Assembly: GCF_004028275.1 (NCBI RefSeq)
Contig: NZ_CP035033.1
Span: forward strand, 1,612,001-1,676,000
Reading direction: 5' to 3'
Source: Hydrogenovibrio thermophilus
GTDB taxonomy: Bacteria > Pseudomonadota > Gammaproteobacteria > Thiomicrospirales > Thiomicrospiraceae
DNA length: 64,000 bases
The notes beneath the pieces are model-generated. The model made no database searches. It saw only the letters and a program-made list of their open reading frames with translations, and was not told where the DNA came from. The translations under genes were made by a program, and so were the position numbers. Of the stretch, positions 13,317 through 41,652 are shown piece by piece. Position 1 is the stretch's first letter. Each line of letters opens with the position of its first letter.

Positions 13317-13318
13317 AA

Positions 13319-22784: not shown

Positions 22785-22793
22785 TTATTTAGA

Positions 22794-23733: not shown

Positions 23734-23873
23734 TAACTTTTTACTTAAAAAACTTAAAAATACTTTATTTTCAATAGGTTAAATTGTTTTTAAAAATCTA
23801 AAGCTCAATAAAAAAATGGCTATAAAAGGAGGGCAGAAAAACTTTTGAAACGTCGATCAAGGAAGGCCAGAAA

Positions 23874-23913
23874 ATAAAAAAAGCGAGTGCCAGGTAAACC
23901 CAACACTCGCTTT
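23874..23913 (-). terminator. Terminator after flaG
   Basis: Stem AGCGAGTG/CACTCGCT (23882-23889 with 23904-23911), 14-base loop, followed by TTTTTTTATTTT on the minus strand. Confidence 0.87.
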
Positions 23914-23928
23914 CAGATAACCATAAAA

Positions 23929-24393: not shown

Positions 24394-24445
24394 AATAATA
24401 CCCCCCTCCTTTCAAGCTCAGCTTTAGTATCTAATTTATACTAAA

Positions 24446-25491: not shown

Positions 25492-27975
25492 ATGAAAACA
25501 ATTAATATCGAAAATCTCTACACCAACTCCTTCGGTGACCAATATTTTCAAGAAATCAACCACACGGCTTTTGATAACGTCGGCGCGACCGCAACGTTCA
25601 ATAAAGTCTTCAATGATGTTTTGAATCAGGAAAACAGGCTGTTTATCATTGTCGGTTCCGATTCCGGACTGCTGATTCCCTACCTGCAGAAATATCATGC
25701 CGATCAAGGGCGCCATTACATCATCATTGAAAAGCCGGAACTGATTTCGCATATCGATAAGACCTTCGAACGCAATGAAGACCTCATAGACCTGGAACCA
25801 GAGGACCTCAACTTCGGCGACCTACCGGAACGCTATTCCGATTACATCGCGCACGGACGCTACACTCTGTTACGTTCGCTGGCAGTCATCGACTCCAAAA
25901 ATGACGTCTACCGTCACTTATGGGATCAAATTCTGGATAAATACAATATCTTTTCCGCTTCTGAAAGTGGCTATGCCATCAACAATGTGTTTATCGACAG
26001 CCAATTGAACAACCTCGCCGCCAATAGCTTGCCGGTTGCCAAAGTGGAAAATGCATTGGCCGGTAAGACCGCCATCATTATGGGGGGCGGCCCGTCACTC
26101 GATAAATCCATCAACTGGATCAAAGCCAACCAACACAAACTGGTCATTTTTGCCGCGGCACGTATCGCCAACCGCTTGAAAAAAGAACAGATTCAGCCCG
26201 ATTTCTTTGTCACTGTCGATCCGCATGATGTCAGTTACGACAACAGTAAATCCATGCTGCAGTTCGGTGATACCGCCGTCCTCGTGCATTCCAATAACGC
26301 CAACAATAAACTGGTCGCGGAATGGTCCGGCATTCATGCTTACCTAGGACTTATGTACCCATGGGTGGATGACCATCACCCGCAACCGGAGAACCTCGGC
26401 ATCGTCGGCCCAACCGTCACCAATACCATGACTTCCGTCGCCGCGTTTCTTGGCGCAGAACAGGTTTTGTTTTCAGGTGTCGACTTCTGCTATGGTGAAA
26501 ATGGCCAAAGTTATGAATCGGAAAGTGTCGAATCCAAAACCGGTAAATACCTCGGACAGGCCACCAACCGGGTCGAGACCTACTCCGGTCGTATTGCCGA
26601 AACAACCCCCAGCTTTGCCAACGCCCGCCAAGGCATGGAAGAATTCGTCGCCTACTCGCTCAAAACGTTTCGAAGCCGCTTCTACACCTTGAGCGAAGAC
26701 ACGGCTCTAATGAAAAATGTCGAATACCGCAATCCAAACGACATTGAATTGCCGAACGCTGACAAAGACGCGGCCTTAATGCAGATTAAAGAAAACCTGA
26801 CGTTTGATTTAAAACCGTATAAAACCCATTTAAAAAATGCCAAACGTTACTGCCAGGAAATGCGTGATTTATGCCGGACCGTCATCAAAGAAGCCAAGCA
26901 GGGGAAAAAACTGGCCAAACGACTCTTCAAAGATTTAGCCGAAACGGACAAACTGACCCAACAAATTGTCTCACTACAAAAAAATCTCAACGACGAAATG
27001 GGACCGCATGCCGAATTCATTTTCAACTATTCCATTAAAGCCTATAAAGATTTCATGAACCCCAGTGTCGGCAAAGACGATATGACCCGCGACCAGATCA
27101 AGGATTCGTTTATTCACTACTTCTCAGGCCTGGTCGATTCGGCTGATCCGCTCAAGCAATCCATTGAAGGCGCCATCACACGCTTGAACCATCGCTTAAA
27201 GGAAGCGGAAGGCACCAAACACTTCGACAAACTGGTCGAACAATGGCATGAGTTACATGAAGAAGGTCGCCCATTGGTCTGGCTGAAAATGAATGGTCTG
27301 TCACTCGACCGGCTTGACTCGGCCCAACGCGAAGCCATTGAAGCTCTCCTAGAGACCTATCAAGAAGAGCTGAAAGCAACGGAAACCAAACTCAGCCGCC
27401 AGTTGAAATCCAAGGGTGAAAGCATCACCAATCTCTTTGAACGCATTCGACGTTATTTTGTCGAAAACCGTCCCTATGACTTGGAAGCACTCGTCAATTA
27501 CATCGCCGAACGCGAGGATGAACAAGCCAAAGACCTGTGTCATCTGGGCGCCGGCTTTATCTATGAGTTGAGAGACATGCCGGACGATGCGCTTAATGAA
27601 TTCGTCCAAATCAAAGACGAAAAACTCTTGATGGAAGGCTTAAAACGTGTCGTTAACATCACATTGGATAAAAAAGATTACCAAACGGCCTTGAATGCAC
27701 TGGAAGTGTTGACGCACTATTCCGATGAATTTTTCATCGCTTACGCGGATATTCTGGCCGCCACCGGTGACGGCCCTGGTGCGGCTGAAATTTACGTGCA
27801 TTACCTCAACCGTAACGAAGAGGATGTCGCCACCTGGATCAAACTGGTCAAGCTGCTGATTCACCTCGGTCTAACGGAAGACGCCATGCAAGCCATCCAA
27901 AACATCAAAAAAATCGACCCCGACAACATCGTCGCCGATGAATTGATGAACTTGGCCACACAGCCGAAAAGCTAG
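25492..27975 (+). CDS. maf: Maf-family motility-associated glycosyltransferase
   Basis: Maf proteins attach nonulosonic acids (pseudaminic or legionaminic) from CMP donors to Ser/Thr of flagellin. The DUF115/MptE-like core is at about residues 165-400, with GGGPSLD at 198-204, an HSNN/VGPTVTN region, and GAEQVLFSGVDFCYGENG. A helical C-terminal region (about 600-827) looks like TPR repeats (YQTALNALEVLTHY, GDGPGAAEIYVHYLNRNEEDVATW). Length is 827, in the normal Maf range. It sits alone on the plus strand between the flagellins and the sugar-synthesis island, and ends at a strong terminator. Only one Maf is in the window although two CMP-sugar synthetases are. Confidence 0.93.
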   Translation: MKTINIENLYTNSFGDQYFQEINHTAFDNVGATATFNKVFNDVLNQENRLFIIVGSDSGLLIPYLQKYHADQGRHYIIIEKPELISHIDKTFERNEDLIDLEPEDLNFGDLPERYSDYIAHGRYTLLRSLAVIDSKNDVYRHLWDQILDKYNIFSASESGYAINNVFIDSQLNNLAANSLPVAKVENALAGKTAIIMGGGPSLDKSINWIKANQHKLVIFAAARIANRLKKEQIQPDFFVTVDPHDVSYDNSKSMLQFGDTAVLVHSNNANNKLVAEWSGIHAYLGLMYPWVDDHHPQPENLGIVGPTVTNTMTSVAAFLGAEQVLFSGVDFCYGENGQSYESESVESKTGKYLGQATNRVETYSGRIAETTPSFANARQGMEEFVAYSLKTFRSRFYTLSEDTALMKNVEYRNPNDIELPNADKDAALMQIKENLTFDLKPYKTHLKNAKRYCQEMRDLCRTVIKEAKQGKKLAKRLFKDLAETDKLTQQIVSLQKNLNDEMGPHAEFIFNYSIKAYKDFMNPSVGKDDMTRDQIKDSFIHYFSGLVDSADPLKQSIEGAITRLNHRLKEAEGTKHFDKLVEQWHELHEEGRPLVWLKMNGLSLDRLDSAQREAIEALLETYQEELKATETKLSRQLKSKGESITNLFERIRRYFVENRPYDLEALVNYIAEREDEQAKDLCHLGAGFIYELRDMPDDALNEFVQIKDEKLLMEGLKRVVNITLDKKDYQTALNALEVLTHYSDEFFIAYADILAATGDGPGAAEIYVHYLNRNEEDVATWIKLVKLLIHLGLTEDAMQAIQNIKKIDPDNIVADELMNLATQPKS

Positions 27976-28061: not shown

Positions 28062-29117
28062 TTACTTGAAATACACTTCATAGTCCGCTTGTGCCTGTTC
28101 GTAATCCGGGATATGCCCAATGTCCATCCAATATTCCGTCAATGGAAAACCACCGGTTTTACGGTCTTCTTCAATCAAGGCGTCCACTAAAGTCGGCATA
28201 TCATAAAAACTGTCCTGCGGAATACTCGACAACACCTCCGGCGACAAACAATAGATGCCGGCGTTCACGAAATAACGATAAACCGGCTTTTCCACCAGTT
28301 GATTGATGTATGGCCCTTCCATTTCAATCACACCATAAGGCACTTGATGCGAATATTCACGCACACAGGTCGTCACACAGTTTTGGTGTTCGGCATGAAA
28401 GTCCAGCAAGGAACGAAAATCGATTTTCGTCAGCAAATCCCCATTCATCACAATAAGCGGCAGGCCTGGTAGTTCTGGCAATAAGCTTAGAGCTCCGGCC
28501 GTCCCCATCGGTTTGCTTTCTTCAATGTAAGTGATGTGAATACCCCATTTCTCGCCGTCACCGAAATACTGGCGAATCTTATCGCCAAGGTAGTTGATGC
28601 AGAAATAAAATTCGGTAAACCCTTGGTCGGCAATGTGTTTGACGATGGTTTCCAAAATCGGTTGATTGCCGACCGGCAACATCGGCTTGGGGATGGTCTC
28701 GGTCAAGGGACGTAAACGCATTCCCAAACCACCCAACATCAACACCACTGGGTTTTGGCGACGCGGCGTCACCTGCGTTTTGCGGTAATACAGGCCGACC
28801 ACTTGTTTTCGATCATTCAAAATCGGTAGATGCCGCAGCGAACGCCGTTTCATGTGCTGATGCCAAACCATCTCGGTTTCCGAATCGAGCCCGACAGTAG
28901 GCGTTGCATTCGCCACCAACTTGATGGAACTGTCCAGAGTCTCCCCTCGCAGCAAGCCACGACGGATATCCCCATCGGTCACCGTGCCGAGCAAACAACG
29001 CTCTTCGGACACCACCAAGACGATTTGCATGGCTTGTTGGTCCAATACCGTTAAGGCATCACGAATCGTCGCATTTTCTTCTATCGAAATGGCTGGCCAA
29101 TCAAATAAATCCATCAC
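28062..29117 (-). CDS. ptmE: CBS-domain sugar nucleotidyltransferase, PtmE-like
   Basis: In Campylobacter, PtmE makes GDP-glucosamine from GlcN-1-phosphate and GTP, the entry step of the GDP-based legionaminic acid route. The architecture matches: two CBS domains (about 8-115) then a nucleotidyltransferase domain (about 120-351) with GGLGMRLRPLTE, the PKPMLP motif and NGDLLT as the metal-binding region. Length is 351. It is the last gene of the island and is 24 bases after legF. The nucleotide used (GTP or another) cannot be read from the sequence. Confidence 0.85.
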   Translation of the reverse strand: MMDLFDWPAISIEENATIRDALTVLDQQAMQIVLVVSEERCLLGTVTDGDIRRGLLRGETLDSSIKLVANATPTVGLDSETEMVWHQHMKRRSLRHLPILNDRKQVVGLYYRKTQVTPRRQNPVVLMLGGLGMRLRPLTETIPKPMLPVGNQPILETIVKHIADQGFTEFYFCINYLGDKIRQYFGDGEKWGIHITYIEESKPMGTAGALSLLPELPGLPLIVMNGDLLTKIDFRSLLDFHAEHQNCVTTCVREYSHQVPYGVIEMEGPYINQLVEKPVYRYFVNAGIYCLSPEVLSSIPQDSFYDMPTLVDALIEEDRKTGGFPLTEYWMDIGHIPDYEQAQADYEVYFK

Positions 29118-29141
29118 CTTTCCCCAACTTCACCTTTAGCA

Positions 29142-29858
29142 TTATTCCATTTGCGCCTGACGCATCTTCAAGAGGGCTTCCACTTGGTAGACATCCGCCA
29201 AATCATCGACATCCACACCGGAAACCGCATCCATCATAAACAAATCCGACAAACCGGCCACCGCCAAACGACGATGCTCTCTCAAAAACTGAGGTGTGGC
29301 AATATAAATGGCACCGTTAATCACATAATAGTCGTCATCAAAGGCCTGGCGTTGCGAGACATAGGTGTCCGGTTGGGCCAAATAGCGCCAATCATCCCCC
29401 TGCACTTGCAAACATTTATAGGGATGCTCCCGCATCGGCTGCACGCTGATTAACGAATCCCGCTCACTTTCTAGGAATTGTAAAATCGCGGCATCAATCT
29501 CTTCGACGGTTCGTAACGGCGTGGTCGGTTGCAATAACACCACCGCATCCGGCAAACGATCACGCGCTTCCAACCAGTCCAAAGCATGCATAAGCACTTC
29601 CACATTGGTCACGGAATCCGCCGCCAACTCCACCGGTCGAACATAATCCCCCGTCAAACCGCATTTTTGGGCGAATGCATTGATTTCCGCATCCTCGCTG
29701 GAGAGCATCAAGTCATTGAGATACTGGCTTTTTTGTACTTCGTCCAATGTGTACTGCAACAGAGGCTTATCCAAAATCGGATAAAGATTCTTTCCGATCA
29801 ATCCTTTGGAACCGCCACGGGCAGGAATAAACCCTAAAATTGTTTCTTGTTCAACCAT
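29142..29858 (-). CDS. legF: CMP-legionaminate synthase (PtmB/LegF)
   Basis: Activates legionaminic acid with CTP to CMP-legionaminate, the donor for Maf. The acylneuraminate cytidylyltransferase motif IPARGGSKGLIGKNL is at residues 11-25, followed by QPTTPLR and the NGAIYI region; the C-terminus has GVDVDDLADV with the conserved metal-binding Asp residues. Start 29858 is chosen over an in-frame codon at 29891: it overlaps the preceding gene's stop by 8 bases and has a GGGA just upstream. Length is about 239, the family norm. Confidence 0.9.
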   Translation of the reverse strand: MVEQETILGFIPARGGSKGLIGKNLYPILDKPLLQYTLDEVQKSQYLNDLMLSSEDAEINAFAQKCGLTGDYVRPVELAADSVTNVEVLMHALDWLEARDRLPDAVVLLQPTTPLRTVEEIDAAILQFLESERDSLISVQPMREHPYKCLQVQGDDWRYLAQPDTYVSQRQAFDDDYYVINGAIYIATPQFLREHRRLAVAGLSDLFMMDAVSGVDVDDLADVYQVEALLKMRQAQME

Positions 29859-31002
29859 GTCCCTGTTTTCCTTCTGGTTGTACGCCGTCAAAATCCGTTA
29901 ACAGCTTAGAAATGAGCAACTCGGTAGACGCTTGCGGACACGGCAAATGCCGCTTGGCTCTTTCCCATAACGCATGACGAGTTTCTTCGAGCAATCCCTG
30001 TTCCAAAACCGCCAGTAACCTTTCTTCTGTATCGACCGATAACAACAACTCTTCAGTCACCAGCGGCAATTCCGCCAACTGATTATACCCCCGCCACCAC
30101 TCAATCAACGCCGGTTCGAACCACAAATAAACGCTGACATTAAACGGCTCCCGAGCAATTTCATTCAAATAAAGGTTATCAAAACCAGAGCTTGAAAAAG
30201 CACTTAAAACCAAGTCGCACACGACAAGGCTGTCCTTAATGCCTCTCATGGGGTTCATCATCGCTCGGTCGCCGAGCGCGTCTTGGAACAACGCAAATGT
30301 CTTATCCCGCTGGTGACGACTTTCTTTTGGGTGGGGACGATACAGCAACTTGAAAGGCCGAGGCCATTTTGATAATTGCCGCACCAAACCTTCAAGTGTT
30401 TCAAAGTACCCGGGGATGTCCAAAATCGGCTGACCGAAAAAACCGACCAGCACCGTGCCCGGTGCAGAATCGGCCAGGCCTGGGCGTTTTTGTTGCCGCG
30501 CGGCCAAAGGGTTATAAAACCGATAACCGGCGTGTTTGATGGAGCCAATTGGAATATTTTCAATTTGAGGGTAGCGCTCGTGAGTCAAACGCGCGGCTTC
30601 GTCATCAATGACGAAAGCGGTATTCGGTAACGCGCCGGAGGCTTGGTTAACACCGCCCCAGAAACTTTGCAATGCGTAAGAATGGATATGCTGCTCAGCG
30701 GCATAGTGCAAAACGGCTTCGTCCAATCCGGTATCCGGGCCGGAAATGCCGGTCAGAACCGCATCCGGTTGAAACGTATCAAACGTTTCACGCAAAATGG
30801 CGCTTTGTAACACGGCATCACAATCTCCTGGCGGAATTATCTGCAACTCGTCATGAGGCACAAACGGCTCCAGTAACCGGTACGCCGGTTCCTGACACAA
30901 GACCTTTAGATGAAAGCGGCCATTGGCGTAAAGCTCGGGAACCAAACGTTCAAAAGAAACAGCCGTTGCGGGGTCTCTGGCAGTAATCAATAATTTCATC
31001 AT
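29851..31002 (-). CDS. Putative GT-B, sialyltransferase-like protein
   Basis: A protein of about 384 residues without a firm family by eye. It has GT-B-like features reminiscent of bacterial sialyl- and polysialyltransferases: an acidic VIDDE at 131-135, PHPKE at 223-227 (compare the HP motif of those enzymes), and SAFSSSG at 267-273. No signal peptide or membrane helix is seen. Two adjacent ATGs (31002, 30999) are preferred to a TTG at 31053. It lies between the phosphotransferase gene and legF, so a role in transferring or trimming a nonulosonic acid is plausible. It could also be another GT-B such as a UDP-sugar epimerase-like enzyme. Confidence 0.5.
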   Translation of the reverse strand: MMKLLITARDPATAVSFERLVPELYANGRFHLKVLCQEPAYRLLEPFVPHDELQIIPPGDCDAVLQSAILRETFDTFQPDAVLTGISGPDTGLDEAVLHYAAEQHIHSYALQSFWGGVNQASGALPNTAFVIDDEAARLTHERYPQIENIPIGSIKHAGYRFYNPLAARQQKRPGLADSAPGTVLVGFFGQPILDIPGYFETLEGLVRQLSKWPRPFKLLYRPHPKESRHQRDKTFALFQDALGDRAMMNPMRGIKDSLVVCDLVLSAFSSSGFDNLYLNEIAREPFNVSVYLWFEPALIEWWRGYNQLAELPLVTEELLLSVDTEERLLAVLEQGLLEETRHALWERAKRHLPCPQASTELLISKLLTDFDGVQPEGKQGHG

Positions 31003-31153
31003 CAAATCAAACGGTCGGTGAAAACCCCTTTTTCCTTTTTTAATTTGACCCAATCGGTTCCAAGGTTAAGGTTATATAAAAATACGAAATTTCGCCACCC
31101 TAAATTCAACCGGTTTTGACAAACCGAAACCTTTTCAGAACAGTTCCAAGAGC

Positions 31154-32146
31154 TTATTTGTACCGGTTTTTCGCTTGATAAACCAACGCCACGAACTTAT
31201 CCCACTCGCTTTGCGGCACGCGCCATTGCTTGAAAAGCATATTCTCCAACAAAATCGCCATGGACCGAATTGACAAGGCGATCATGGGCGATGTCAAATC
31301 GCCTTTCAAGCCGTAGGCTTTGCACAAACAGTTTTCCAAGCGTTCGGCTTCTTCGGGAGCACGCCCCCATAATAATCGCTGTGAAGCCATCGCCAAATCA
31401 AACCCGACCGGAAAAAAGCTGTAACGAGCATTTTCATAATCGATTACGCAAGGTTGCCCGTTAAGCGACAGAACATTTCCGACATTCAAATCCCCGTGCA
31501 CCATCTGCGCCCTGTCCAAATCGAAATCCAATAACGGATAATGCTCGACAAACAGGTGCAATTCGTTTGGCGAAATCGTCAAGTCATCAAGCATCCAATC
31601 CGAATCGGGAAACGCTTTGAGCCGATCCGTGACTTTCTGCAAAACCCGATTAAAACCGGCTTTGCGTTCAAGCCAATTATCACGGCACTTGACCTGTAAC
31701 GGATGCTGTTTCAAAACACGGTGTAATCGGGCCAGATATTGACCGAAAACGATAACTTGAGATTCGTCCAAAGACAAGGGAGAAAAGTTCAGAAAATCGC
31801 CACGGATTAAACAGACGGTATCATCCTGAAAGGTGGCGACAGAAATATCCAAAGATCGCGCCAGCACGCCGGCATGATTTAAATCGGCTTCCAACTGAAC
31901 GGAAAATGCTTCCAAATCGTAAAAAGCCTCGGGAAGCAGTTTAAAAAACTGGCTGGGTGTCTCAAACTTATCAGCATCGAAACGATAAAAACCGAACGGA
32001 TAATCATAGGCCGTGCCTTCCATGCGAGACAGGCGACCGTTTTCCACCCCCAAAAAGTGGCGCAAAGCTCTTTCTTCGGAAGACGACAGGCGTGCATAAC
32101 ACACCTGCTCCGGCGCGTGGTAAGGAAACGCCGGTGGTTTATGCAT
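31154..32146 (-). CDS. APH/choline-kinase-type small-molecule phosphotransferase
   Basis: A protein-kinase-fold enzyme that would phosphorylate a small substrate with ATP. The Brenner-type motif HGDLNVGNVL (catalytic Asp) is at about residues 217-226 and the DFG-equivalent CVIDYEN at about 233-239. Length is about 330. The ATG at 32146 overlaps the preceding gene's stop (ATGCATAA); a TTG at 32155 is the alternative. It lies within the island between the NeuB-like gene and the GT-like gene, with a 151-base gap downstream. The substrate may be a sugar or an amino alcohol attached to the glycan; the sequence does not say which. Confidence 0.75.
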   Translation of the reverse strand: MHKPPAFPYHAPEQVCYARLSSSEERALRHFLGVENGRLSRMEGTAYDYPFGFYRFDADKFETPSQFFKLLPEAFYDLEAFSVQLEADLNHAGVLARSLDISVATFQDDTVCLIRGDFLNFSPLSLDESQVIVFGQYLARLHRVLKQHPLQVKCRDNWLERKAGFNRVLQKVTDRLKAFPDSDWMLDDLTISPNELHLFVEHYPLLDFDLDRAQMVHGDLNVGNVLSLNGQPCVIDYENARYSFFPVGFDLAMASQRLLWGRAPEEAERLENCLCKAYGLKGDLTSPMIALSIRSMAILLENMLFKQWRVPQSEWDKFVALVYQAKNRYK

Positions 32147-33224
32147 TCCCTTCAAGATGGCTCCAATGAATCACCTGCCCGCGAGTGAGCGGTTTCGTCA
32201 ACACAGCCTTATCGACTTCCGACCAGGCCTGGGCACCGATTCCCAACGCCGGAAAGGCAAAATCCACAACATCCAAACTTAACACTGCCCCCACCGGCAA
32301 GTCTTGTTTGGCAACCAACCCCATCCGGGCACGATGCGGCTTGGCTTCCAACGGTGCTCGCCCGTCACCCAGGGCTGCATGAATTTGTCGAATCTGATTC
32401 AACGTATCCGCTACCTCTGACACCGGCATAGAGTGATACACGCCTTGGTCCATGGCCGCACCGTCCATATAAACACCTTTTTCCAACACCGCCACATCCA
32501 TCACCGTTGCCGCCAATAGCATTTCCGTACCGACATGGTGGTCGGATAATCCGGTCAGACAACCAAACGTCTGCTGTAAGGTTTGCATAAACCGCAAATT
32601 ATGATCGCCCACCGGTGCCGGAGGAGCTTTCGGGCTTTGTTGCACAATCAATTGCCGGGCACCGGCCTTTTCGGCCCAACCGACAGCCCGCGAAATTTCG
32701 CTCAAATCCGCCCGGCCGGTATCCATGATCATCGGTAAACCAAGATGCGCGATGTACTCTATCAACGGTTGGTGGGTAATATTCGACGAAGCGACTTTTA
32801 ACGCTACACAGCCCTCGTCCACAGCAAATTGCGCCCCTTCAAAGTCGTAAACCGAAACCGCCACCTGCATCCCCAGACGGCGACACAGCGCGAATAATCG
32901 TTGATAATCCGCGAGGCTAACCACTTTTCGCTCAATCAATCGACGATAATTTTCTTTTTGAATCCGGTTACCATCGACTAAATACTCGTCGTCATAATCC
33001 GTATCCAATGCAATATCCGGTCGATGCAGGATTTCCCCTTTCACCACCTTGACGCCGGCCTCCGCCAATTGACGAATCATCTGCTCGGCTTGCTCAATAT
33101 CTTGATTGAAAAAGGTACCGATGTCCGGCAGGAAAAGCGGTTCTTCGCCCAACCCGACCGGATGCCCACCGATTTCAAACTCCAATGCAAAATGCTTGGT
33201 CATCGTCTCACCCATTACTTCCAT
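32139..33224 (-). CDS. Divergent NeuB-like synthase with SAF domain
   Basis: Homologue of the PEP-dependent nonulosonic acid synthases (NeuB/LegI/PseI), with a TIM-barrel (about 30-270) and a C-terminal antifreeze-like SAF domain (about 300-355). Retained: the Lys in VVKGEI, the Lys in ALKVASSN, and SDHHVGTEM. Changed relative to legI next door: the LHxxxxYP motif reads VQQSPKAPP, so the first metal-ligand His is lost, and the SGEL motif reads SSNI. It is therefore a paralogue, probably with altered substrate or chemistry. The start is uncertain: 33224, 33215 or 33203 (MTKHFALEF). Confidence 0.82.
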   Translation of the reverse strand: MEVMGETMTKHFALEFEIGGHPVGLGEEPLFLPDIGTFFNQDIEQAEQMIRQLAEAGVKVVKGEILHRPDIALDTDYDDEYLVDGNRIQKENYRRLIERKVVSLADYQRLFALCRRLGMQVAVSVYDFEGAQFAVDEGCVALKVASSNITHQPLIEYIAHLGLPMIMDTGRADLSEISRAVGWAEKAGARQLIVQQSPKAPPAPVGDHNLRFMQTLQQTFGCLTGLSDHHVGTEMLLAATVMDVAVLEKGVYMDGAAMDQGVYHSMPVSEVADTLNQIRQIHAALGDGRAPLEAKPHRARMGLVAKQDLPVGAVLSLDVVDFAFPALGIGAQAWSEVDKAVLTKPLTRGQVIHWSHLEGNA

Positions 33225-33282
33225 TGCTTATTCGTTTAATGGTTCCACTCTCGTGCGAGTTACGCGCTTGATGACGTTTATT

Positions 33283-34239
33283 TCAAGCCGTTTGTTGCAA
33301 CACATACTGCATCCGATAACGTCGTTGATCCTGTCCGAACAAGTCCGGATACTCCAGCACCGGCAACAGCAGTTCGGTAAAGACTTCCACCCACTCCTGT
33401 TTAATCTCCATGCGGTTGTCGGCCGACAAATTGGCGGCCATCTTATTCAACATCGGAAAAATCGGGCGCATCCCCAAATTCCAAATGTGCGCCAAGCTGG
33501 CGGGCAGAATGTCGCGAGACTCCACGACTTCCAACCCGCAATCCGCAAACAACATCTCCCAGCCACTTTCATCACGTAACCCCGGATTCGTGGCCTGACG
33601 TCCGCGATTCAGCATCTGCTGCCACAAATCAGGCGTACCCGGCATCAACTTGCCCCAGTCCAGTTCTTTCTTCTCCGTAGTGAAAACATCAATCACCATC
33701 ACACCGGATGGCTTTAATTTCCGCTTCATCGCTTGCAGTGCCACATCGGTTTCCGCCACCCAATACAGGCTATTGCAATACACCTTATCCAGACTGCCAT
33801 CCTCAATTCCGGTCACTTCATCACGTAAATCAGCCAGGTGCAGACTTTGATAAAAGTCCAATGTCTCAGCCTTTTTCAGCAGATTTTCCTTGTGATCGGT
33901 ACCATAGGTAAACCCTCTTGTTGGGGTCTGTTCAATGACCGGTCGGTAGGCTTGATCGTAATAATCGAAAACATCAATGTCTTTCGCGGCGACGTCCGTG
34001 GTCTTTTGTTGACCGGCACCGGCAATAAACAAGTCAAAGTCTTCGGTGAAGCGCCCACCGCACTTAAAGAAGGTATTCACCCCGTCACCGCAGGCAAAAT
34101 CGGCGGTTTTTTCACCGTCTTTCGGGGTTAAATCAACACCATTGATGACATAGGACGCTAGTGCCAAAGCATTTTCCGGCCGCAACCACCATAAATTCAA
34201 AGCGTGTTTTAAAACTTCCTGCGATTGAAACTGACTCAT
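33283..34239 (-). CDS. Class I SAM-dependent methyltransferase
   Basis: A 318-residue Rossmann-type methyltransferase. SAM-binding motif I is at about residues 45-55 (TADFACGDGVN), an acidic region follows, and a post-motif strand is visible (GVMVIDVFTT). The substrate is unknown; in flagellin-glycan islands such enzymes often N- or O-methylate the sugar. The start ATG forms ATGA with the stop of the downstream cytidylyltransferase gene, so they are coupled. About 58 bases separate it from the NeuB-like gene. Confidence 0.78.
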   Translation of the reverse strand: MSQFQSQEVLKHALNLWWLRPENALALASYVINGVDLTPKDGEKTADFACGDGVNTFFKCGGRFTEDFDLFIAGAGQQKTTDVAAKDIDVFDYYDQAYRPVIEQTPTRGFTYGTDHKENLLKKAETLDFYQSLHLADLRDEVTGIEDGSLDKVYCNSLYWVAETDVALQAMKRKLKPSGVMVIDVFTTEKKELDWGKLMPGTPDLWQQMLNRGRQATNPGLRDESGWEMLFADCGLEVVESRDILPASLAHIWNLGMRPIFPMLNKMAANLSADNRMEIKQEWVEVFTELLLPVLEYPDLFGQDQRRYRMQYVLQQTA

Positions 34240-34958
34240 GCAAAATCCTCTTGATGTATGTTATTTTCTAAAACGGCCTGGGCAAAAACCAAATCCACTT
34301 GATTATCGATATCGATCGAACGGGCTTCCGGCATGCTGTAAATTTTCATGTTATCTGTGTAAAAACGTTGCTCAGAAAGAAACGCATCAGTGTGTGCAAA
34401 ATAAATGGCGCCGTTCGGGTAAAAGTATTCAGGATTGGCTTGCAAACGTGTCGCGGCAAAGTCCGTGGAACAGAATTGCTCAGGCACTTTGGCCAAACCG
34501 TCCTCCGATTGACGAAACATGAACTGCGGCAATTGAGCGGTTTGCTTCATCGACACCACCGATTTGACTTCATCCGTCAATAGCGCAAAAGCGCGTTGAA
34601 TATCTTGGGCGTCTCGGAACGGACAAGTCGGCAACAGCAAACTGCAGGCCTGGTAGTTTTTGCCATCGGCGGCGCGCCGGGCAATCACATCCGAAAGCAC
34701 TTGAACCGCCGTGGCATCGTCCGTGGCCAAATGTGGCGATCGTAACTCGTATGTCAATCCGGCGTCCTGATAACCGGACACGGTTTGCAGAATTTCATCA
34801 CTGTCGGAAGACAGAACCACTTCGTCAAAAACGCCACTTTCCAGCGCGGCTTCAATCGTCCAGGCGAGTAAGGGCTTATCGCCCAACATCGCTAAATTCT
34901 TGCGCGGAAAACGCTTGGAATTGGCTCTGGCCGGAATCAATGCAATGGCCGAAGACAT
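34236..34958 (-). CDS. Second CMP-nonulosonate cytidylyltransferase
   Basis: A NeuA/PseF-family enzyme of 240 residues, distinct from legF. The N-terminal motif reads IPARANSKRFPRKNL (residues 8-22), with Ala-Asn in place of the usual Gly-Gly. LLLPTCPFRD, the PNGAIYF region and SIDIDNQVDL with its metal-binding Asp residues are present. A second CMP-sugar synthetase implies a second nonulosonic acid. The start overlaps the deacetylase stop as TGATG. Which sugar it activates cannot be told. Confidence 0.85.
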   Translation of the reverse strand: MSSAIALIPARANSKRFPRKNLAMLGDKPLLAWTIEAALESGVFDEVVLSSDSDEILQTVSGYQDAGLTYELRSPHLATDDATAVQVLSDVIARRAADGKNYQACSLLLPTCPFRDAQDIQRAFALLTDEVKSVVSMKQTAQLPQFMFRQSEDGLAKVPEQFCSTDFAATRLQANPEYFYPNGAIYFAHTDAFLSEQRFYTDNMKIYSMPEARSIDIDNQVDLVFAQAVLENNIHQEDFA

Positions 34959-35629
34959 CAGACCTCCACCTCTTTCACACTCATGAAAGCTTCGGCCGCT
35001 TCTGTCTGAATCTGCGCGCCGCGCAAAACAGCCAAGGCGCGCAAAGACGCTTCCGAACGCGGAAACGGGTGGTTGGCCATTTCCGATTCAAAATACGCCA
35101 TCAGCTCGATTTTTCGCGACAGAAAATCCGTCACATCCACCCATAGGTTAGGATGAAACCCGGTGTCTTGGGTATTCAATCCAAAGCCGGTTTCCGACAA
35201 GGTTTCATATACCCGAACCGAACGGACACTCGGATATCGAAAGTTTTTGGTACAAGCGGACACGGCATCATATACATAAGCATGATCCGAGTGTGCATCC
35301 CCACGATAAGGCAAATACAAGACATTTGCTTGCGTCTGCTGAATCACCTCAGAACAAGCACCGACCAAATCCTTCATCGCGACCCGGTCCAGTTCCGCGA
35401 CCGGAAACCCTAACTCAAATACGTGATGGAAACCGTAGGCTTCAGCCACCTGTTCAATTTCGGCTTGCCGTTTGGCTTGGCGCTCGGCATCAAACCCCAT
35501 TTGTTCAGTCATGCGGGTCACAATCACCCAGCTGACCTGGTCACCTTTCGCCAGGTGCTTTAATAAAGTGGCTCCGCAGCCCAGCGTTTCGTCATCCGGG
35601 TGCGGTGCAAAAACAACAACATTTGCCAT
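34958..35629 (-). CDS. PIG-L/LmbE-family deacetylase
   Basis: A zinc-dependent N-acetyl hydrolase. The signature APHPDDE is at residues 8-14, and the second metal-binding element HSDHAYVYDAV follows around 110. Length is about 224. The ATG at 35629 is preferred to a TTG at 35635. Such enzymes expose an amine on GlcNAc-type sugars; together with the formyltransferase-like gene directly upstream in the operon, an acetyl-for-other-acyl swap on the sugar is suggested (inference). Confidence 0.83.
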   Translation of the reverse strand: MANVVVFAPHPDDETLGCGATLLKHLAKGDQVSWVIVTRMTEQMGFDAERQAKRQAEIEQVAEAYGFHHVFELGFPVAELDRVAMKDLVGACSEVIQQTQANVLYLPYRGDAHSDHAYVYDAVSACTKNFRYPSVRSVRVYETLSETGFGLNTQDTGFHPNLWVDVTDFLSRKIELMAYFESEMANHPFPRSEASLRALAVLRGAQIQTEAAEAFMSVKEVEV

Positions 35630-35631
35630 GT

Positions 35632-36531
35632 TCAATCCATATACGTATCGGGAGTAAAATCCAACTCCGGTTCTATCTGTTTCAATTTCAGCACGCCATC
35701 ATAGGTTTTGACAATCGGCTTCCCGTCCCGCAGAGCTAAAATTTTGCCCGGTTCGTGGTACTCGATTTCATATTCGGCGTCGGGCCAATCGACGTTTTCC
35801 ACTTGCCAAACGACAAATTCCGTTTGACCATAACTTGCCGTCGCGCCCGGGTAAGGTCGATGCAACGCTCTTACCAGATTATGAATCGCCTTTGTCGACA
35901 TGCGCCAATCGATTTGCCCATCGACTTTAGAGCGTTTCCGCCAATGATTTCCGCACGATGCCGCTTGTGGAAGCGGTTGCACCCGCCCTTCGGCTAAGGC
36001 CTGAAAAAGTTCTGTCAATAGTGGCACGGCCGTGACCTTAACCTTTTCATACAAATCCTCGGCATTATCGTCTGCACCAATCGGAATTTCGCTCTGAGCC
36101 AAGATGTCCCCGGTGTCCGCGCCTTCGTTCATTTGAAAAAAACTCAAACCGGTTTTCTCCAACCCGAGCACTAACGCCCAAATTAACGGATGTCGCCCTC
36201 GATTGTGCGGCAGAAGACTGGGGTGCGCGCCAATCACGCCTAACGGCGGTTGTGCCAATAATGACGTTTTAATCAACTGTGACCAACCAAGACAAAAAAT
36301 GACATCCGGTTGACGTTGCCCTATCCAATCCAAAGTCACAGGTGAATTGATGTCCGTCACACGTTGAAACGGCCAACCGTGCTGACAGCAAAGCGGTTCC
36401 ATATCCGCATAATCCGAATAACGCTCCGGCTGTTCGGTGGAAACCACACCGACGATGTCGGCCCCAGCTTGATTCAAAATATTCAAACAGTGCAAACTAA
36501 AATCCACCGCACCGATCACCAACACTTTCAT
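35632..36531 (-). CDS. Formyltransferase-fold protein with altered catalytic motif
   Basis: A 299-residue homologue of methionyl-tRNA and sugar formyltransferases with N-terminal catalytic (about 1-185) and C-terminal Fmt_C-like (about 200-290) domains. The key region reads GAHPSLLPHNRG where Fmt has N-x-H-x-SLLP-x-x-RG: the His is kept but the catalytic Asn is Gly. The Asp in GADTGDIL is kept. The upstream legG stop and this ATG overlap as ATGA; a longer in-frame extension to 36672 lies inside legG and is rejected. It is probably a sugar N-acyl transferase; formyl donor use is uncertain. Confidence 0.75.
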   Translation of the reverse strand: MKVLVIGAVDFSLHCLNILNQAGADIVGVVSTEQPERYSDYADMEPLCCQHGWPFQRVTDINSPVTLDWIGQRQPDVIFCLGWSQLIKTSLLAQPPLGVIGAHPSLLPHNRGRHPLIWALVLGLEKTGLSFFQMNEGADTGDILAQSEIPIGADDNAEDLYEKVKVTAVPLLTELFQALAEGRVQPLPQAASCGNHWRKRSKVDGQIDWRMSTKAIHNLVRALHRPYPGATASYGQTEFVVWQVENVDWPDAEYEIEYHEPGKILALRDGKPIVKTYDGVLKLKQIEPELDFTPDTYMD

Positions 36532-37715
36532 GAACAGGCCTCCGCGCAATCGTGAAACCCTTTTTTCAATAAAGCACTTCGATCTTGCAATGATAATGTT
36601 TTCAGGTGTCCTACTATTTTTTCGGCCGTATGCCCGTTTCCATAAGGATTTTTTACACCGGCCAACAAACACACAAAGGCATCCGATAAAGCGGTTTCAA
36701 TCGCTTGCAATATCGCTTCCGTTTGGCAATCGACATGCAGAACATTCGCGCCCGTCACCCGTCCCAACTGGCGTTCGCCAATATTGACCACCGGTTTTTG
36801 AAACGAAGCCGCTTCAATGATGCCACTGGAAGAATTCCCCAACACCATTGCGCAGTGCTGCATGGCACTCAAATAGCGCAATTGTCCCAGCGATTTCACC
36901 AGGTGCAGCTGTTCGGGATGGGCTTGCTGGGCGGCGACAATCACTTGATACATAGCCTCACCGCCCGCATCGATATTCGGCATGGTAATCACCGTTTGCA
37001 AACCGCTTGCAATCACCGCATCCAAAACCACTTCCATTTCCTGTGCGGCCGCGGACGCATCATTCAAAGTCACCGGATGATAGGTCATGAGCACCGTTGA
37101 AATCGTCCAGTCCACCCCGGTTTCGTCTTGCAACGCGGTGGAGGACAGCAATGGCAGTTCCACAATATTATCCAAACCAATGGCACCGACATTGAACACT
37201 CGGCTTGGTTGCTCCCCCATTTGAATCACACGTCGCGCATAATCGTCGTGCGAGACGAAATGCAGTGCCGACATTTTCGTCAGGCTGTGTCGAACGGCAT
37301 CGTCAATTAACCCAAACGTGGCTTCACCACCATGTAAATGCGCAATAGGCAACCGATTCAACATCGCGGCCATGGCCACGGCCAGCATTTCGAAACGATC
37401 ACCCAGAATCACCACCAAATCAAAGTCATGCTGTTCGAATAAACGCCCGAACCTAGCCAACGCCTGACCACTGGCTTCAGCCAGTTGCGACGGTTGATCG
37501 CCCTGCAAAGCCATATCCACTTCAAGCAAAGGCTCTATGCCATCGGCTTTCAACACCGAGATGGTCTCTCCCTGTTCCGCGACCAAATGTGACCCGGTGG
37601 CAATCATGGTCGGTGCAAACAGGGCATCCGCTTGTAGTTTTTGCCACAACGGCTTCAACAAACCGTAATCGGCTCGGCCGCTGGTGACCAGTGCGATTCG
37701 ATTGATGTCAGACAT
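36528..37715 (-). CDS. legG: Hydrolysing UDP/GDP-sugar 2-epimerase (LegG/NeuC family)
   Basis: Removes the nucleotide and inverts C2 of the diacetamido sugar to give the ManNAc-like precursor for LegI. NeuC-family features: ALVTSGRADYGLLKPLW at the N-terminus, HLHGGEATFGLIDDAVRH with the catalytic acidic and His residues, and GNSSSGIIEA near the C-terminus. Length is about 395. The ATG at 37715 has GAAGAGG 6 bases upstream and overlaps the legI stop by 8 bases. Confidence 0.92.
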   Translation of the reverse strand: MSDINRIALVTSGRADYGLLKPLWQKLQADALFAPTMIATGSHLVAEQGETISVLKADGIEPLLEVDMALQGDQPSQLAEASGQALARFGRLFEQHDFDLVVILGDRFEMLAVAMAAMLNRLPIAHLHGGEATFGLIDDAVRHSLTKMSALHFVSHDDYARRVIQMGEQPSRVFNVGAIGLDNIVELPLLSSTALQDETGVDWTISTVLMTYHPVTLNDASAAAQEMEVVLDAVIASGLQTVITMPNIDAGGEAMYQVIVAAQQAHPEQLHLVKSLGQLRYLSAMQHCAMVLGNSSSGIIEAASFQKPVVNIGERQLGRVTGANVLHVDCQTEAILQAIETALSDAFVCLLAGVKNPYGNGHTAEKIVGHLKTLSLQDRSALLKKGFHDCAEACS

Positions 37716-38733
37716 AATCATCCTCTTCAATCGCCGCGTTGACACCTAAATCACGAGCCGCCGCACAGCCGATGACATCGTCCCAGAAAAAGCCCGTGAC
37801 GCCCGTATCCGAACGCTTCATCGTGACATTTTGGTCGGTAAAAATCTCGCCTTTCGCAATCGGTTTCGCCGCCACCAAACGTTTTCGGACCACCGCCAAG
37901 TTACCGGATTCGGAATTCGATGGTCGTTTCTCGGCATCGCCCAAAGCCGCTTCCACGTGCCGGATAGCTGTTACCATGTTTTTCAATTCATACGGTTCCA
38001 AGCTGGCTTTATGATCCGGCCCCGGTAAGCTTTTATCCAAGGTAAAATGCTTTTCAACCATCTCCGCGCCCATCGCCACGGCGGCAATCGGTACTTCAAT
38101 GCCCAGCGAATGATCCGACAACCCCACCGCCACTTGAAAGGTTTCCGCCAAAGTCTGCATGGCCCGCAAGTTCACGTCTTCATACGGCGTCGGATAGGCC
38201 GTATTGGCATGCAAAATCGTTAAGTTATTTTTCGCCAGGCCTGCTTTGAGCAGCGTTTCGACCGCCAATACCACCTCGTCCAAACGTCCCATGCCGGTGG
38301 ACAAAATGGTCGGTTGATTCAACCCGCCAATCTTACGTAGGTAAGGAATTGACAATAATTCACCCGACGGGATTTTCCAGCGTTTGACACCAAGCCGATG
38401 CAGGAAATCAACGCTCGGTAAATCAAACGCCGTGGACATGAACTCGATATGATGTTTTTGGCAATAGGTTAACAACTCAAAGTGAGCTTGCTCCGACAAT
38501 TCCAGCCGTTTCAGCATCGCAAACTGGCTTTCTTTCACACCGGTATTATCGGTCTGATACGCGGCTTGTTCGGCCGTTTGCGTCACCAATTCTTCGGTTT
38601 TGAACGTTTGGAACTTCACCGCATCCGCGCCCGCCGCAACGGCGGCATCGACCAAGGCCAACGCGGTTTGCAAGTCACCATTATGATTAACTCCAGCTTC
38701 GGCAATAATGAAAGTATGCTTCTGAACCGACAT
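37708..38733 (-). CDS. legI: Legionaminic acid synthase (LegI/NeuB family)
   Basis: Condenses 2,4-diacetamido-2,4,6-trideoxymannose with PEP. All canonical motifs are present: VKFQTFKTEEL, KIPSGELLSIP, ILSTGMGRLDEV, LHANTAYPTPYEDVNL and VGLSDHSLGIEV, followed by a SAF domain (about 280-335). Length is 341. The ATG at 38733 overlaps the legH stop by one base (TAATG) and is preceded by GGCGGAGG. Assignment to legionaminic rather than neuraminic or pseudaminic acid rests on the neighbouring legB, legC, legG and ptmE. Confidence 0.9.
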   Translation of the reverse strand: MSVQKHTFIIAEAGVNHNGDLQTALALVDAAVAAGADAVKFQTFKTEELVTQTAEQAAYQTDNTGVKESQFAMLKRLELSEQAHFELLTYCQKHHIEFMSTAFDLPSVDFLHRLGVKRWKIPSGELLSIPYLRKIGGLNQPTILSTGMGRLDEVVLAVETLLKAGLAKNNLTILHANTAYPTPYEDVNLRAMQTLAETFQVAVGLSDHSLGIEVPIAAVAMGAEMVEKHFTLDKSLPGPDHKASLEPYELKNMVTAIRHVEAALGDAEKRPSNSESGNLAVVRKRLVAAKPIAKGEIFTDQNVTMKRSDTGVTGFFWDDVIGCAAARDLGVNAAIEEDDYV

Positions 38734-39389
38734 TAGTCCTCCGCCTCCATTTTCAGGTGCCGAGCCGCCGGCTGTCCAATATAAACACCTGATTCGACAA
38801 TATCCTTCACCACCACCGAGCCCGCGCCCACGATAGTTTTTCCGATAATACGCGTTGATTGCACCACCATCGAGCCACTGCCGATCAAGCAATCATCCCC
38901 CACGGTCACACCCCCATTCAATAACGCCCCAGTGGCAATATGACAATGCGCACCGATTCGGACATCATGCTCAACCAGCGCTTTGGAATTGATAATACTA
39001 TTGGCGCCGATTTCCGCCAACGGATTCACCAAGGCATGATGCATCACCACGGTGCCATCGCCGATAATGGCCGACGCCGCCACCTTGGCGAACGGCGAAA
39101 TCACGCTGGGCAAATGTCCGCCCAAATCAAGCACCTGTTGAAATAATCGACGACGCACCGCCGAAGATTTAAGCTGACCGACCGTTATCAGGCAAGCCGG
39201 TACTTTTTGAACCCAATAAGGCAAATCGTCGTCGGTACCGATGACCGGGTACCCCAACACACATTCGGTTTGCGATTCGGGCGACTCGATAATGCCGACA
39301 ATCTCATAAGCATCTGTGGCTTCAATCACATCAATGACGGCAGCGCAATGGCCTCCCCCTCCCAATAACAACAAAGGCGTTCGGTTCAT
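38733..39389 (-). CDS. legH: Sugar O/N-acetyltransferase, LegH/NeuD/PglD family
   Basis: A 218-residue left-handed beta-helix acetyltransferase with an N-terminal Rossmann-like domain (LLLLGGGGHCAAVIDVIEA) and hexapeptide repeats from about residue 95 (IIGDGTVVMHHALVN, IGAHCHIATGALLNGG, with the catalytic-type His). In the Leg pathway this step acetylates the C4 amine made by LegC. The ATG at 39389 overlaps the legC stop as ATGA; a longer frame to 39530 lies in legC and is rejected. Confidence 0.87.
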   Translation of the reverse strand: MNRTPLLLLGGGGHCAAVIDVIEATDAYEIVGIIESPESQTECVLGYPVIGTDDDLPYWVQKVPACLITVGQLKSSAVRRRLFQQVLDLGGHLPSVISPFAKVAASAIIGDGTVVMHHALVNPLAEIGANSIINSKALVEHDVRIGAHCHIATGALLNGGVTVGDDCLIGSGSMVVQSTRIIGKTIVGAGSVVVKDIVESGVYIGQPAARHLKMEAED

Positions 39390-40597
39390 GACGTCACGCC
39401 CCCTTTTGCCGCACCTTGGCAAGGAATCCCGCTCGGTAAATTCACAACCCGATCGGCCAACCATTCGGTATTCGGCAGTTCCGTTTGCAAGCAGGCCTGG
39501 TAGATTTCCAGTTTGTGCATCGGTGTCCACAATGGGCGGGTTTGAATATTCTGTTCATTGGTAAAAGCCAAAAACGCCTCGCGATGAGCGGCACCGTCGC
39601 ACAAAACCGCATTCAACCAATAATTGGAAGCCGCGGCATGGTCATTATTGGCATCATCAAAAAACGCCAGGCCTGGTGTTTTTTCAATAATGGTCCGGTA
39701 GCGCTCAGCCAAAGCGCGTTTCTGCTGGCGAAACGCCGGCAGCTTTTGCATTTGCGCCACGCCCAATGCGGCATTCAAATTCGGCATCCGCAGGTTATAC
39801 GCCACTTCGTCATGCTCAAAATGCCACGCATGCGGCACCTTGGCGGTGGTGCTGAGGTGTTTGGCGTGTGCGGCCAATTCCGTATCGTCGGTCACCAACA
39901 TGCCACCACCGCCGGTGGTGAGAATTTTATTGCCATTAAAACTGAACACGCCGACCTCGCCAAACGTACCGGTATGACGCCCTCGATATTCGGAGCCGAG
40001 GCTTTCCGCGGCATCTTCCACCAACTTAATATGATGTTCTCGACAAATGTCGACCAAACGGTCGATTTCGCACGGAAACCCTAAGGTATGCATCGGCACA
40101 CAGGCCGCAATGCGTCGACCGGTTTCGGTGTGCAGGCATTGCCCGTTTTCCAAATGCGTTTGTTCGGCGAGAAAATTGGCTAAACTGTCCGGGCATAAGC
40201 CCATGGTTTTACGAGATACATCCAAAAGCACCGGCTCCGCGCCACACAGTTTGATGGCATTCGGTGTTGCCACAAAGGTCAAAGATTGCGTCAAGACCAA
40301 ATCGCCCGGCTGCACGCCGACCACTTTCATCGCCAGAAACAGGCCCATTGTGCCATTCACCACCGCGACCGCATGCTTGGCGCCCGTAAAGTCGGCCATA
40401 GCCTCTTCGAAACGATTGACATATTGGCCGACCGACGACACAAAGGTGCTGTCGATGCAGTCCGACACCATGTGTTTTTCAGTGTCGTCAAAACAAGGGG
40501 CATGCAATGGAATCAAACCGGCTTCGGCACTTGGCACGGCATAGGTATCCCGGATAAAATCAATCAGTGTTTGCGTGTCGGCCAAGCGGTCAGACAT
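39386..40597 (-). CDS. legC: PLP-dependent sugar aminotransferase (LegC)
   Basis: DegT/DnrJ/EryC1-family enzyme that aminates C4 of the 4-keto-6-deoxy sugar nucleotide, using PLP and probably glutamate. Visible are the cofactor region (VVNGTMGLFLAM), VEDAAESLGSEYRG, and the Schiff-base Lys in VFSFNGNKILTTGGGG. Length is 403. The start 40597 overlaps the legB stop by 8 bases. The gene holds two CAGGCCTG copies (39492, 39668), the latter inside a nearly perfect 26-bp palindrome. Confidence 0.92.
   Translation of the reverse strand: MSDRLADTQTLIDFIRDTYAVPSAEAGLIPLHAPCFDDTEKHMVSDCIDSTFVSSVGQYVNRFEEAMADFTGAKHAVAVVNGTMGLFLAMKVVGVQPGDLVLTQSLTFVATPNAIKLCGAEPVLLDVSRKTMGLCPDSLANFLAEQTHLENGQCLHTETGRRIAACVPMHTLGFPCEIDRLVDICREHHIKLVEDAAESLGSEYRGRHTGTFGEVGVFSFNGNKILTTGGGGMLVTDDTELAAHAKHLSTTAKVPHAWHFEHDEVAYNLRMPNLNAALGVAQMQKLPAFRQQKRALAERYRTIIEKTPGLAFFDDANNDHAAASNYWLNAVLCDGAAHREAFLAFTNEQNIQTRPLWTPMHKLEIYQACLQTELPNTEWLADRVVNLPSGIPCQGAAKGGVTS
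39659..39684. repeat. CAGGCCTG iterated palindrome, best extended copy
   Basis: Here CCAGGCCTGG (39667-39676) is flanked by AAAAAACG on the left and TGTTTTTT on the right, inside legC. CAGGCCTG was found at 16 places, starting at 6585, 6963, 15173, 21229, 27125, 28461, 30475, 32224, 34645, 38236, 39492, 39668, 41245, 42164, 47747 and 61557. Nine have the full 10-bp CCAGGCCTGG, and most are followed by a T-rich tract. A one-base variant is in the terminator at 53943. Chance expectation for an 8-mer is about one. Confidence 0.85.
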
Positions 40598-41591: not shown

Positions 41592-41652
41592 TCCTCTCTC
41601 ACTTTTTTATTATGTTCGTCTTGAAGCGGTTTGATATTCAATCAGAAACTCC

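Follow-up and report, generated by a model that had tools for sequence, protein, structure and literature searches.

The legionaminic acid pathway with PtmE is the Campylobacter-type guanosine diphosphate (GDP) route. In Hydrogenovibrio thermophilus, whose genome is a single contig of 2.6 Mb, genes of this pathway are split by a cassette of six genes, which is the subject of this report and which occupies positions 31154–36531, minus strand, of the window, as we call the 64,000-nucleotide stretch of contig NZ_CP035033.1 (1,612,001 to 1,676,000) that was analyzed. The cassette encodes a formyltransferase-like protein, a PIG-L-type N-deacetylase, a cytidylyltransferase (CMPs2), a methyltransferase, a divergent NeuB-like synthase (NeuB2) and an APH-type kinase. 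For the closest described systems, the available sections of the papers cited throughout are our source. 5-N-formyl-legionaminic acid is known from Halorubrum sp. PV6 and from the virus HRPV-1 (PMC6137143), formyl- and methyltransferases are already known to vary between flagellin islands (PMC4875605), and a study of canonical NeuB active sites also treats genomes with two NeuB proteins of two known pathways (PMC7371886). The flagellin of Shewanella oneidensis bears a singly acetylated acid of 274 Da together with a C9H16O7 moiety that has added methyl groups, for which SfmA is needed (PMC3765264).

Our analysis suggests, with a probability of about 0.48, that an exchangeable cassette trims legionaminic acid and adds a second acid, derived from phosphoenolpyruvate (PEP), to the same flagellin glycan. 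This reading draws on gene content, module exchange, altered NeuB2 motifs and purifying selection, all observed directly, and on predicted folds of the kinase and of the neighboring protein U400. The gene block is bounded by flgK, flgL and mltC on one side and by Maf and a flagellin gene on the other, and Maf is the only exception to its minus-strand orientation. In order of transcription, the genes are legB, legC, legH, legI, legG, the formyltransferase-like gene, PIG-L, CMPs2, the methyltransferase gene, NeuB2, the kinase gene, U400, the legF-like gene and ptmE. An earlier note on this DNA had described six tightly packed genes inside a legionaminic acid island; the cassette indeed lies between legBCHIG and legF/ptmE with exactly the bounds given there, and adjacent frames overlap by 1–17 nt, except for a gap of at least 58 nt between the methyltransferase gene and NeuB2. 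All six proteins score above curated Pfam cut-offs, with E-values of 1.1e-43 for NeuB, 9.4e-25 for Formyl_trans_N, 4.4e-23 for PIG-L and 1.8e-22 for CTP_transf_3, the matches to APH (5.1e-8) and Methyltransf_11 (1.2e-6) being weaker.

The divergent synthase NeuB2 and its kinase partner

The claim of the earlier note that the second synthase diverges from LegI is borne out by phylogeny and motifs for NeuB2 (32139–33224, minus strand), a predicted PEP-dependent synthase with an altered acceptor site. In a tree of 62 NeuB-family proteins, from which 2 of 64 sequences had been removed as fragments, the 22 NeuB2 rows occupy one side of a branch with support of 100/100. NeuB2 contains a NeuB barrel and an SAF domain, with matches to PF03102 (149.9 bits) and PF08666 above cut-off, and stays below the NCBIfam equivalog cut-offs for PseI (148 against 340.25 bits) and NeuB_NnaB (143.9 against 399.65 bits). 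The His of the EKH motif, which we take to be a metal ligand, is present in 40 of 40 canonical synthases and replaced by Gly in all 22 NeuB2 rows that include this stretch. At the Gln55 position, Gln in 40 of 40 canonical proteins corresponds to Glu in 24 of 24 NeuB2 rows, and the SAF-domain Arg, retained in all 40 others, is Phe or Trp in 22 of 22 (the near-copies L051 and L052 are both counted in these motif rows). NeuB2 retains the Lys of the KGE/KTE motif, the SDH/SCH motif and the Glu of the EKG motif, which are presumably motifs of the PEP side. Gln55 and Arg314, the latter being the SAF-domain Arg, are active-site residues of N. meningitidis NeuB (PMC6795526); the R314A variant is inactive, and Arg314 helps to position the N-acetyl group of N-acetylmannosamine (PMC6795526, citing other work). 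Because the counterparts of Arg314 and Gln55 and an otherwise invariant His are lost, the acceptor of NeuB2 probably differs from the canonical one and is unlikely to be a 2-N-acetyl sugar.

NeuB2 appears to be rare, as only the window's own genome matched at E 1e-50 among 398 genomes sampled across the phylum, a limit that remoter forms could escape. Of 62 genomes in the window's family, 12 have a clear NeuB2 (E < 1e-140); a broken fragment in G482 is excluded from this count. Tree labels place NeuB2 in Pseudomonadota, Thermodesulfobacteriota and Verrucomicrobiota. A canonical NeuB is also present in all 20 NeuB2 genomes searched, which comprise 12 of the window's family and nine reached through loci, with T. 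heinhorstiae most likely common to both; each of those nine has at least two NeuB matches, at least one of them high-scoring and canonical. In a search of plasmids, the best match stood at 30% and was named as ordinary NeuB or PseI kin. Two further observations concern NeuB-like genes. A Methyloprofundus metagenome-assembled genome (MAG; Kmv24, G455) has 11 NeuB-family matches in one metagenome assembly, reflecting either many nonulosonic acid (NulO) pathways or a mixed assembly. Hydrogenovibrio halophilus (G004) has, apart from its first, another NulO-like cluster next to mltC (L101, 266000–284000), which contains NeuB-like and cytidylyltransferase genes of its own; the other genes there were judged by eye.

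The gene behind NeuB2 (31154–32155, minus strand; PF01636) encodes an APH-type small-molecule kinase, as indicated by a modeled APH fold (predicted local distance difference test, pLDDT, of 87.2) and by the motifs HGDLNxGN, which fits HGDxxxxN, and DxE; both motifs are kept in 10 of 10 kinase relatives. Outside the window, the kinase gene comes directly after NeuB2 in 19 of 20 distinct loci whose sequence extends past NeuB2, the exception being T. heinhorstiae (L053), in which U400 lies between them. NeuB2 and the kinase form a near-constant pair across three phyla.

Probable N-acyl editing and cassette exchange

We mapped clusters in nine kin genomes with NeuB2 and at 16 further loci, giving 25 rows. 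L043, L046–L049 and L054 were dropped as repeat genomes; L051, a near copy of L052 (same genome as L157), was left out of cluster counts and kept in the motif and tree rows; and L059 and L154 are one place, counted once. L050, L057, L061 and L062 stop in or just behind NeuB2, L060 starts at NeuB2, and L044 and L045 are short and both derive from a single metagenome assembly that has 11 NeuB matches. The slot before NeuB2 is in view in 19 clusters outside the window. PIG-L occupies it in six of them, five with a formyltransferase, and PseA in nine, while four have neither and none has both; PseA is also present in four further loci that end in or behind NeuB2. The acetamidino module to which PseA belongs (WbuX/PseA, HisF2, HisH) was named on examples.

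In the window, the slot holds PIG-L (34958–35635, minus strand), a PIG-L/LmbE-type N-deacetylase with a match to PF02585 above cut-off (82.6 bits) and the motifs PHPDDE, which contains HPDDE, and HSDH, and a protein of the ArnA/Fmt family (35632–36531, minus strand) with both Formyl_trans_N (PF00551) and Formyl_trans_C (PF02911). ArnA is the best solved relative of the latter (130 bits), and the position of the Asn in the NLH motif of ArnA is Gly in the window protein and its six relatives (7 of 7), with His and Asp retained. Asn-His-Asp is, we assume, the catalytic triad of formyltransferases that use 10-formyl-tetrahydrofolate (10-formyl-THF), and formyl-THF dehydrogenase also lacks the triad Asn. 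A class I S-adenosylmethionine-dependent methyltransferase (33283–34239, minus strand; PF08241) follows CMPs2; a sequence search found no solved-structure relative of it at E 0.01.

Given that the acetamidino module takes the same slot, that the two never occur together, and that the set is found once without NeuB2, PIG-L and the formyltransferase-like enzyme most likely edit an N-acyl group of legionaminic acid, and the acyl exchange proposed in the earlier note is well supported as an inference from this pattern. The set without NeuB2 is that of L100 (G032), in which a formyltransferase, PIG-L, a methyltransferase and an APH kinase occur together, so acyl editing is separable from NeuB2. In another legionaminic acid cluster, L098 (G022, 2552–9721), PIG-L and an ATP-grasp protein lie between legI and ptmE along with two methyltransferases, a HAD hydrolase and a nuclease gene of YhcG type; the cluster has neither a formyltransferase nor NeuB2. 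This is perhaps another re-acylation route, and PIG-L with an ATP-grasp protein in place of a formyltransferase is what would be expected if PIG-L frees an amine for re-acylation. Separately, three plain legionaminic acid clusters (L096, L097 and L099, from G008, G025 and G026) have a protein of 381–391 residues between legH and legI, which in L097 and L099 is a DUF2920 protein with alpha/beta-hydrolase signals.

Comparison with H. halophilus, a member of the same genus, delimits the exchanged segment. Synonymous divergence (dS) is 0.42–0.82 for PIG-L, CMPs2, the methyltransferase, NeuB2 and the kinase, and far higher in flanking genes (3.1 for the formyltransferase, 1.8 for legG, 3.0 for legI and 1.7 for legB, with ptmE saturated). 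PIG-L through the kinase is therefore read as a five-gene block recently shared with H. halophilus, unlike its neighbors; a segment from legI to the kinase was ruled out because the low dS is confined to these five genes. For NeuB2, the ratio of nonsynonymous to synonymous divergence (dN/dS) is 0.11. Compared with G009, dS is 0.22–0.24 for legB and legC, 0.64 for legH and 2.45 for U400; ptmE and legF are saturated, and only part of the NeuB2 region can be aligned. The frame around the exchanged part is constant: in 11 of 11 family clusters (L033–L041, L053 and L153), legB, legC, legH, legI and legG come first, and ptmE closes the series ahead of Maf, accompanied by the LegF-type gene in those clusters that have one.

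The full set of formyltransferase, PIG-L, methyltransferase, NeuB2 and kinase is found, with the gene order varying, in H. halophilus, in the family member G018 and in two MAGs, one alphaproteobacterial and one of Spartobacteria. Its reappearance in distant bacteria despite the altered order is good evidence for a joint function of the cassette genes, and their recurrence in both related and distant genomes excludes a chance grouping. The search for the same gene order that the earlier note had called for thus recovered the genes in differing orders, and its view that they act together is further backed by the low dS shared from PIG-L through the kinase.

Activation, transfer and rival readings

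From a second synthase and a second cytidylyltransferase, the earlier note deduced a second nine-carbon acid activated with cytidine monophosphate (CMP). The second synthase and two intact cytidylyltransferases do stand here; the pairing proved not to be a rule, and the nine-carbon size is unsupported. One of the two enzymes is CMPs2 (34236–34958, minus strand; PF02348), of LegF/PseF type by phylogeny and 93% identical to its H. halophilus counterpart, and the other is the legF-like product (29142–29891, minus strand; PF02348, 67.5 bits), likewise placed by the tree. For CYTIDYLYLTRANSFERASE, one per cluster is usual. All 18 other clusters that show both LegI and NeuB2 have a single LegF/PseF-type cytidylyltransferase (Magnetospirillum being counted apart, and L044 and L045 being short contigs), and the window, with two, is the exception. 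In G018, two synthases coexist with a single such enzyme in the whole genome, a single Maf-type PF01973 match and no U400; of its other cytidylyltransferase matches, the two large ones are KdsB by NCBIfam and two remote ones (24–30 bits) were set aside. An inference from two synthases to two cytidylyltransferases is therefore not supported as a rule. The CMPs2 clade (7 of 27 tree rows) is confined to clusters with NeuB2, and the CMPs2 type is the only cytidylyltransferase type in the H. halophilus leg cluster, that genome having one more in its separate NulO-like cluster. The tree suggests that legF and U400 of the window belong to one cluster type and CMPs2 to the other, which would account for the presence of two such enzymes. 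We considered legF and U400 as decaying leftovers and rejected this: the LegF branch is long, but both genes are without stops and U400 has a dN/dS of 0.10, indicating purifying selection (dS for LegF is saturated and yields no ratio).

U400 (29851–31053, minus strand) lies next to the cassette. The earlier note called it a GT-B gene, which holds for the fold, although no sequence family supports it: the AlphaFold2 model (mean pLDDT 78.6) has a GT-B fold, and Foldseek returned GT-B proteins, with UDP-N-acetylglucosamine 2-epimerases first and MurG also among them, at TM-scores near 0.5. No sequence family was found for U400, nor a solved-structure sequence match at E 5. On its modeled fold, U400 is likely a glycosyltransferase, though it may instead be an epimerase. 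A comparison with the Capsule_synth-type protein beside NeuB2 in Verrucomicrobia found no relation (hhalign probability 0.3). In L095 (G003, 3889–13330), a U400 homologue occurs where NeuB2 is absent, along with several genes unseen elsewhere in this study, an 860-residue one looking by eye like a deacetylase/AMP-ligase fusion. The Maf/PseD-like flagellin glycosyltransferase (25492–27975, plus strand) is the sole PF01973 match of the genome, and PF01973 likewise matches once in 7 of 11 NeuB2 genomes, the window's included.

In the scheme that we favor, PtmE, LegB, LegC, LegH, LegG and LegI would, judging by their families, make a diacetamido acid, from which PIG-L would take off one N-acetyl group. 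The formyltransferase-like enzyme would re-acylate the freed amine, probably with a formyl group from 10-formyl-THF, and the methyltransferase would methylate the re-acylated product. NeuB2 would join PEP to a second aldose that lacks a 2-N-acetyl group, yielding another 3-deoxy-2-ulosonic acid, and the APH kinase would phosphorylate this acid or its precursor. The second acid would be part of the same glycan, not a separately transferred sugar, and Maf would attach the product to flagellin. One LegF/PseF-type cytidylyltransferase would normally suffice, the window's two being parts of two combined cluster types. We put forward more tentatively the specific proposal that NeuB2 and the kinase represent a new branch of PEP-dependent synthases, making a phosphorylated 3-deoxy-2-ulosonic acid without a 5-N-acetyl group that is joined to N-edited legionaminic acid on flagellin, a branch found in three phyla, always on a canonical legionaminic-type pathway, and exchanged by cassette.

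Several findings weigh against this scheme. Loss of the SAF-domain Arg is not specific to NeuB2, since the solved protein 3g8r also has FAFP at that motif, and the missing Asn of the ArnA motif in the formyltransferase-like family makes formyl transfer less than certain. A methyltransferase homologue is present in only 4 of 19 clusters, and U400 is not strictly tied to NeuB2, occurring in 7 of 10 genomes with it and in one of four without. The window's two cytidylyltransferase genes have no stops and U400 is under purifying selection, so that none of the three bears the mark of a leftover, and both cytidylyltransferases may be used in this genome. G012 had to be dropped as a second one-cytidylyltransferase genome, because a remote PseF-like protein (51.5 bits, cut-off 205.7) is encoded on another contig (L158, G012:C11:118300–120200, outside the leg cluster), the large matches of G012 being KdsB by NCBIfam. 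The NeuB2 group also has a cytidylyltransferase of its own in two lineages: Magnetospirillum (L154/L059) carries one LegF/PseF-type enzyme and a KdsB-type enzyme about 7 kb behind NeuB2 on the same strand, and a Rhodospirillaceae MAG has a KdsB-type enzyme likewise placed, each genome having another KdsB-like match elsewhere. In favor of the scheme, this arrangement suggests an acid without an N-acetyl group; against it, CMP-activation of the second acid is possible and could elsewhere proceed through housekeeping KdsB.

The KdsB-type enzymes behind NeuB2, the two synthases and two intact LegF/PseF-type cytidylyltransferases of this genome and the restriction of the CMPs2 clade to NeuB2 clusters would also fit an independent pathway, in which NeuB2, CMPs2 and either U400 or Maf make and transfer a second nonulosonic acid that is CMP-activated and bears formyl, methyl and phosphate groups. 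We consider this unlikely, as a dehydratase, an aminotransferase and a 2-epimerase are all missing from the cassette itself, the 18 other two-synthase clusters manage with one such cytidylyltransferase, and G018 combines one with a single Maf and no U400. That a canonical synthase accompanies NeuB2 in 20 of 20 genomes searched also agrees with a different role, in which NeuB2 would supply an acyl or another non-glycosidic substituent of legionaminic acid, in the way that the methylated moiety carried by the 274-Da sugar of S. oneidensis flagellin may be read. There, the NeuB-like SfmA is required and the C9H16O7 moiety with added methyl groups was judged nitrogen-free (PMC3765264), a composition that, by our comparison, fits a reduced dideoxy nonulosonic acid as the acyl group. 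The ATP-grasp ligase, reductase and thiamine pyrophosphate (TPP) enzyme of sfm are, however, all absent among the window genes at 28062–42903, and this role seems to us quite improbable. Least credible is a regulatory or inactive NeuB2 within a cassette that yields only N-edited, methylated legionaminic acid: three acceptor or metal-site positions are lost and one kin cluster has the decorating genes with no NeuB2, but the retained KGE/KTE Lys, SDH/SCH and EKG Glu, the dN/dS of 0.11 and the maintenance of NeuB2 with the kinase in three phyla all argue against it.

Predictions of sialic acid-type surface sugars from gene lists often rely on the numbers of synthases and cytidylyltransferases, and here such a count misleads because two synthases usually accompany one LegF/PseF-type cytidylyltransferase. 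The flagellin sugars of this sulfur-oxidising bacterium may have been changed cassette by cassette, and the swap between amidination and de-acetylation/re-acylation offers a simple genetic handle on flagellin glycan diversification in free-living bacteria. If NeuB2 does use a different aldose, it would open a new branch of acidic sugars.

Surrounding genes and comparison with described systems

The remaining genes of the island identify its pathway, with LegB, LegC, LegH-type, LegI-type and LegG proteins all above curated NCBIfam cut-offs. On the minus strand, legB (40590–41591) encodes an NDP-sugar 4,6-dehydratase (TIGR04180, 521.6 bits, cut-off 475), legC (39386–40636) an aminotransferase (TIGR04181, 528.3 bits, cut-off 420), the legH-type gene (38733–39530) an acetyltransferase of the NeuD/PglB/VioB family (TIGR03570, 200 bits, cut-off 160.8) and legG (36528–37745) a hydrolysing 2-epimerase (TIGR03568, 419.6 bits, cut-off 235.9). 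LegI (37708–38892, minus strand; TIGR03569, 477.6 bits, cut-off 399.65) is a canonical NeuB-type synthase with EKH, Lys-x-Gln and the SAF Arg; its profile match opens at residue 60, and an ATG near 38736 is the likelier start. The ptmE-like gene (28062–29117, minus strand) combines CBS (PF00571) and nucleotidyltransferase (PF00483) domains. Beside Maf, four minus-strand frames of 272–277 residues (at 20239, 21407, 22794 and 24446; span 20239–25264) are likely a flagellin array, the frame at 24446–25264 being the only one tested as a flagellin.

With the legionaminic acid/PtmE pathway the window shares LegB, LegC, LegH, LegG, LegI, a LegF-type enzyme and PtmE beside flagellar genes and Maf, and differs in that the pathway is split by PIG-L, the formyltransferase-like gene, the methyltransferase gene, the second cytidylyltransferase gene, NeuB2 and the kinase gene. 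The acetamidino module (WbuX/PseA, HisF2/WbuZ, HisH), which occupies the slot before NeuB2 in kin, is absent from the window cluster and is one of amidination instead of de-acetylation and re-acylation. PseJ (PDB 6ci2, 6ci4), which we take to be the formyltransferase of a nonulosonic acid pathway, is a remote relative of the window protein (43 bits), ArnA being much closer. Halorubrum sp. PV6 likewise has a predicted formyltransferase gene, HrrPV6_1050, among its leg genes, but there the product is an archaeal N-glycan, and the available sections name neither PIG-L nor a second synthase (PMC6137143). In S. oneidensis MR-1, sfmABCDE similarly has a NeuB-like gene and a methyltransferase gene, both required for a flagellin glycan of unusual structure whose base is a nonulosonic acid with a single acetyl group, whereas this five-gene operon has a TPP enzyme, a reductase and an ATP-grasp protein and, as described in the available sections, no PIG-L, formyltransferase, APH kinase or cytidylyltransferase (PMC3765264). 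Moritella viscosa also has two NeuB genes in one genome, but these are assigned to the Neu and Pse pathways, both of canonical kinds (PMC7371886). Our literature search, whose coverage left out most subscription journals, so that novelty is unproven, found no paper with this gene set. Set beside these systems, the locus is of an already known kind in its legionaminic acid cluster, and what sets it apart by its predicted gene content is an exchangeable N-acyl-editing cassette together with a rare, divergent second synthase and its kinase.

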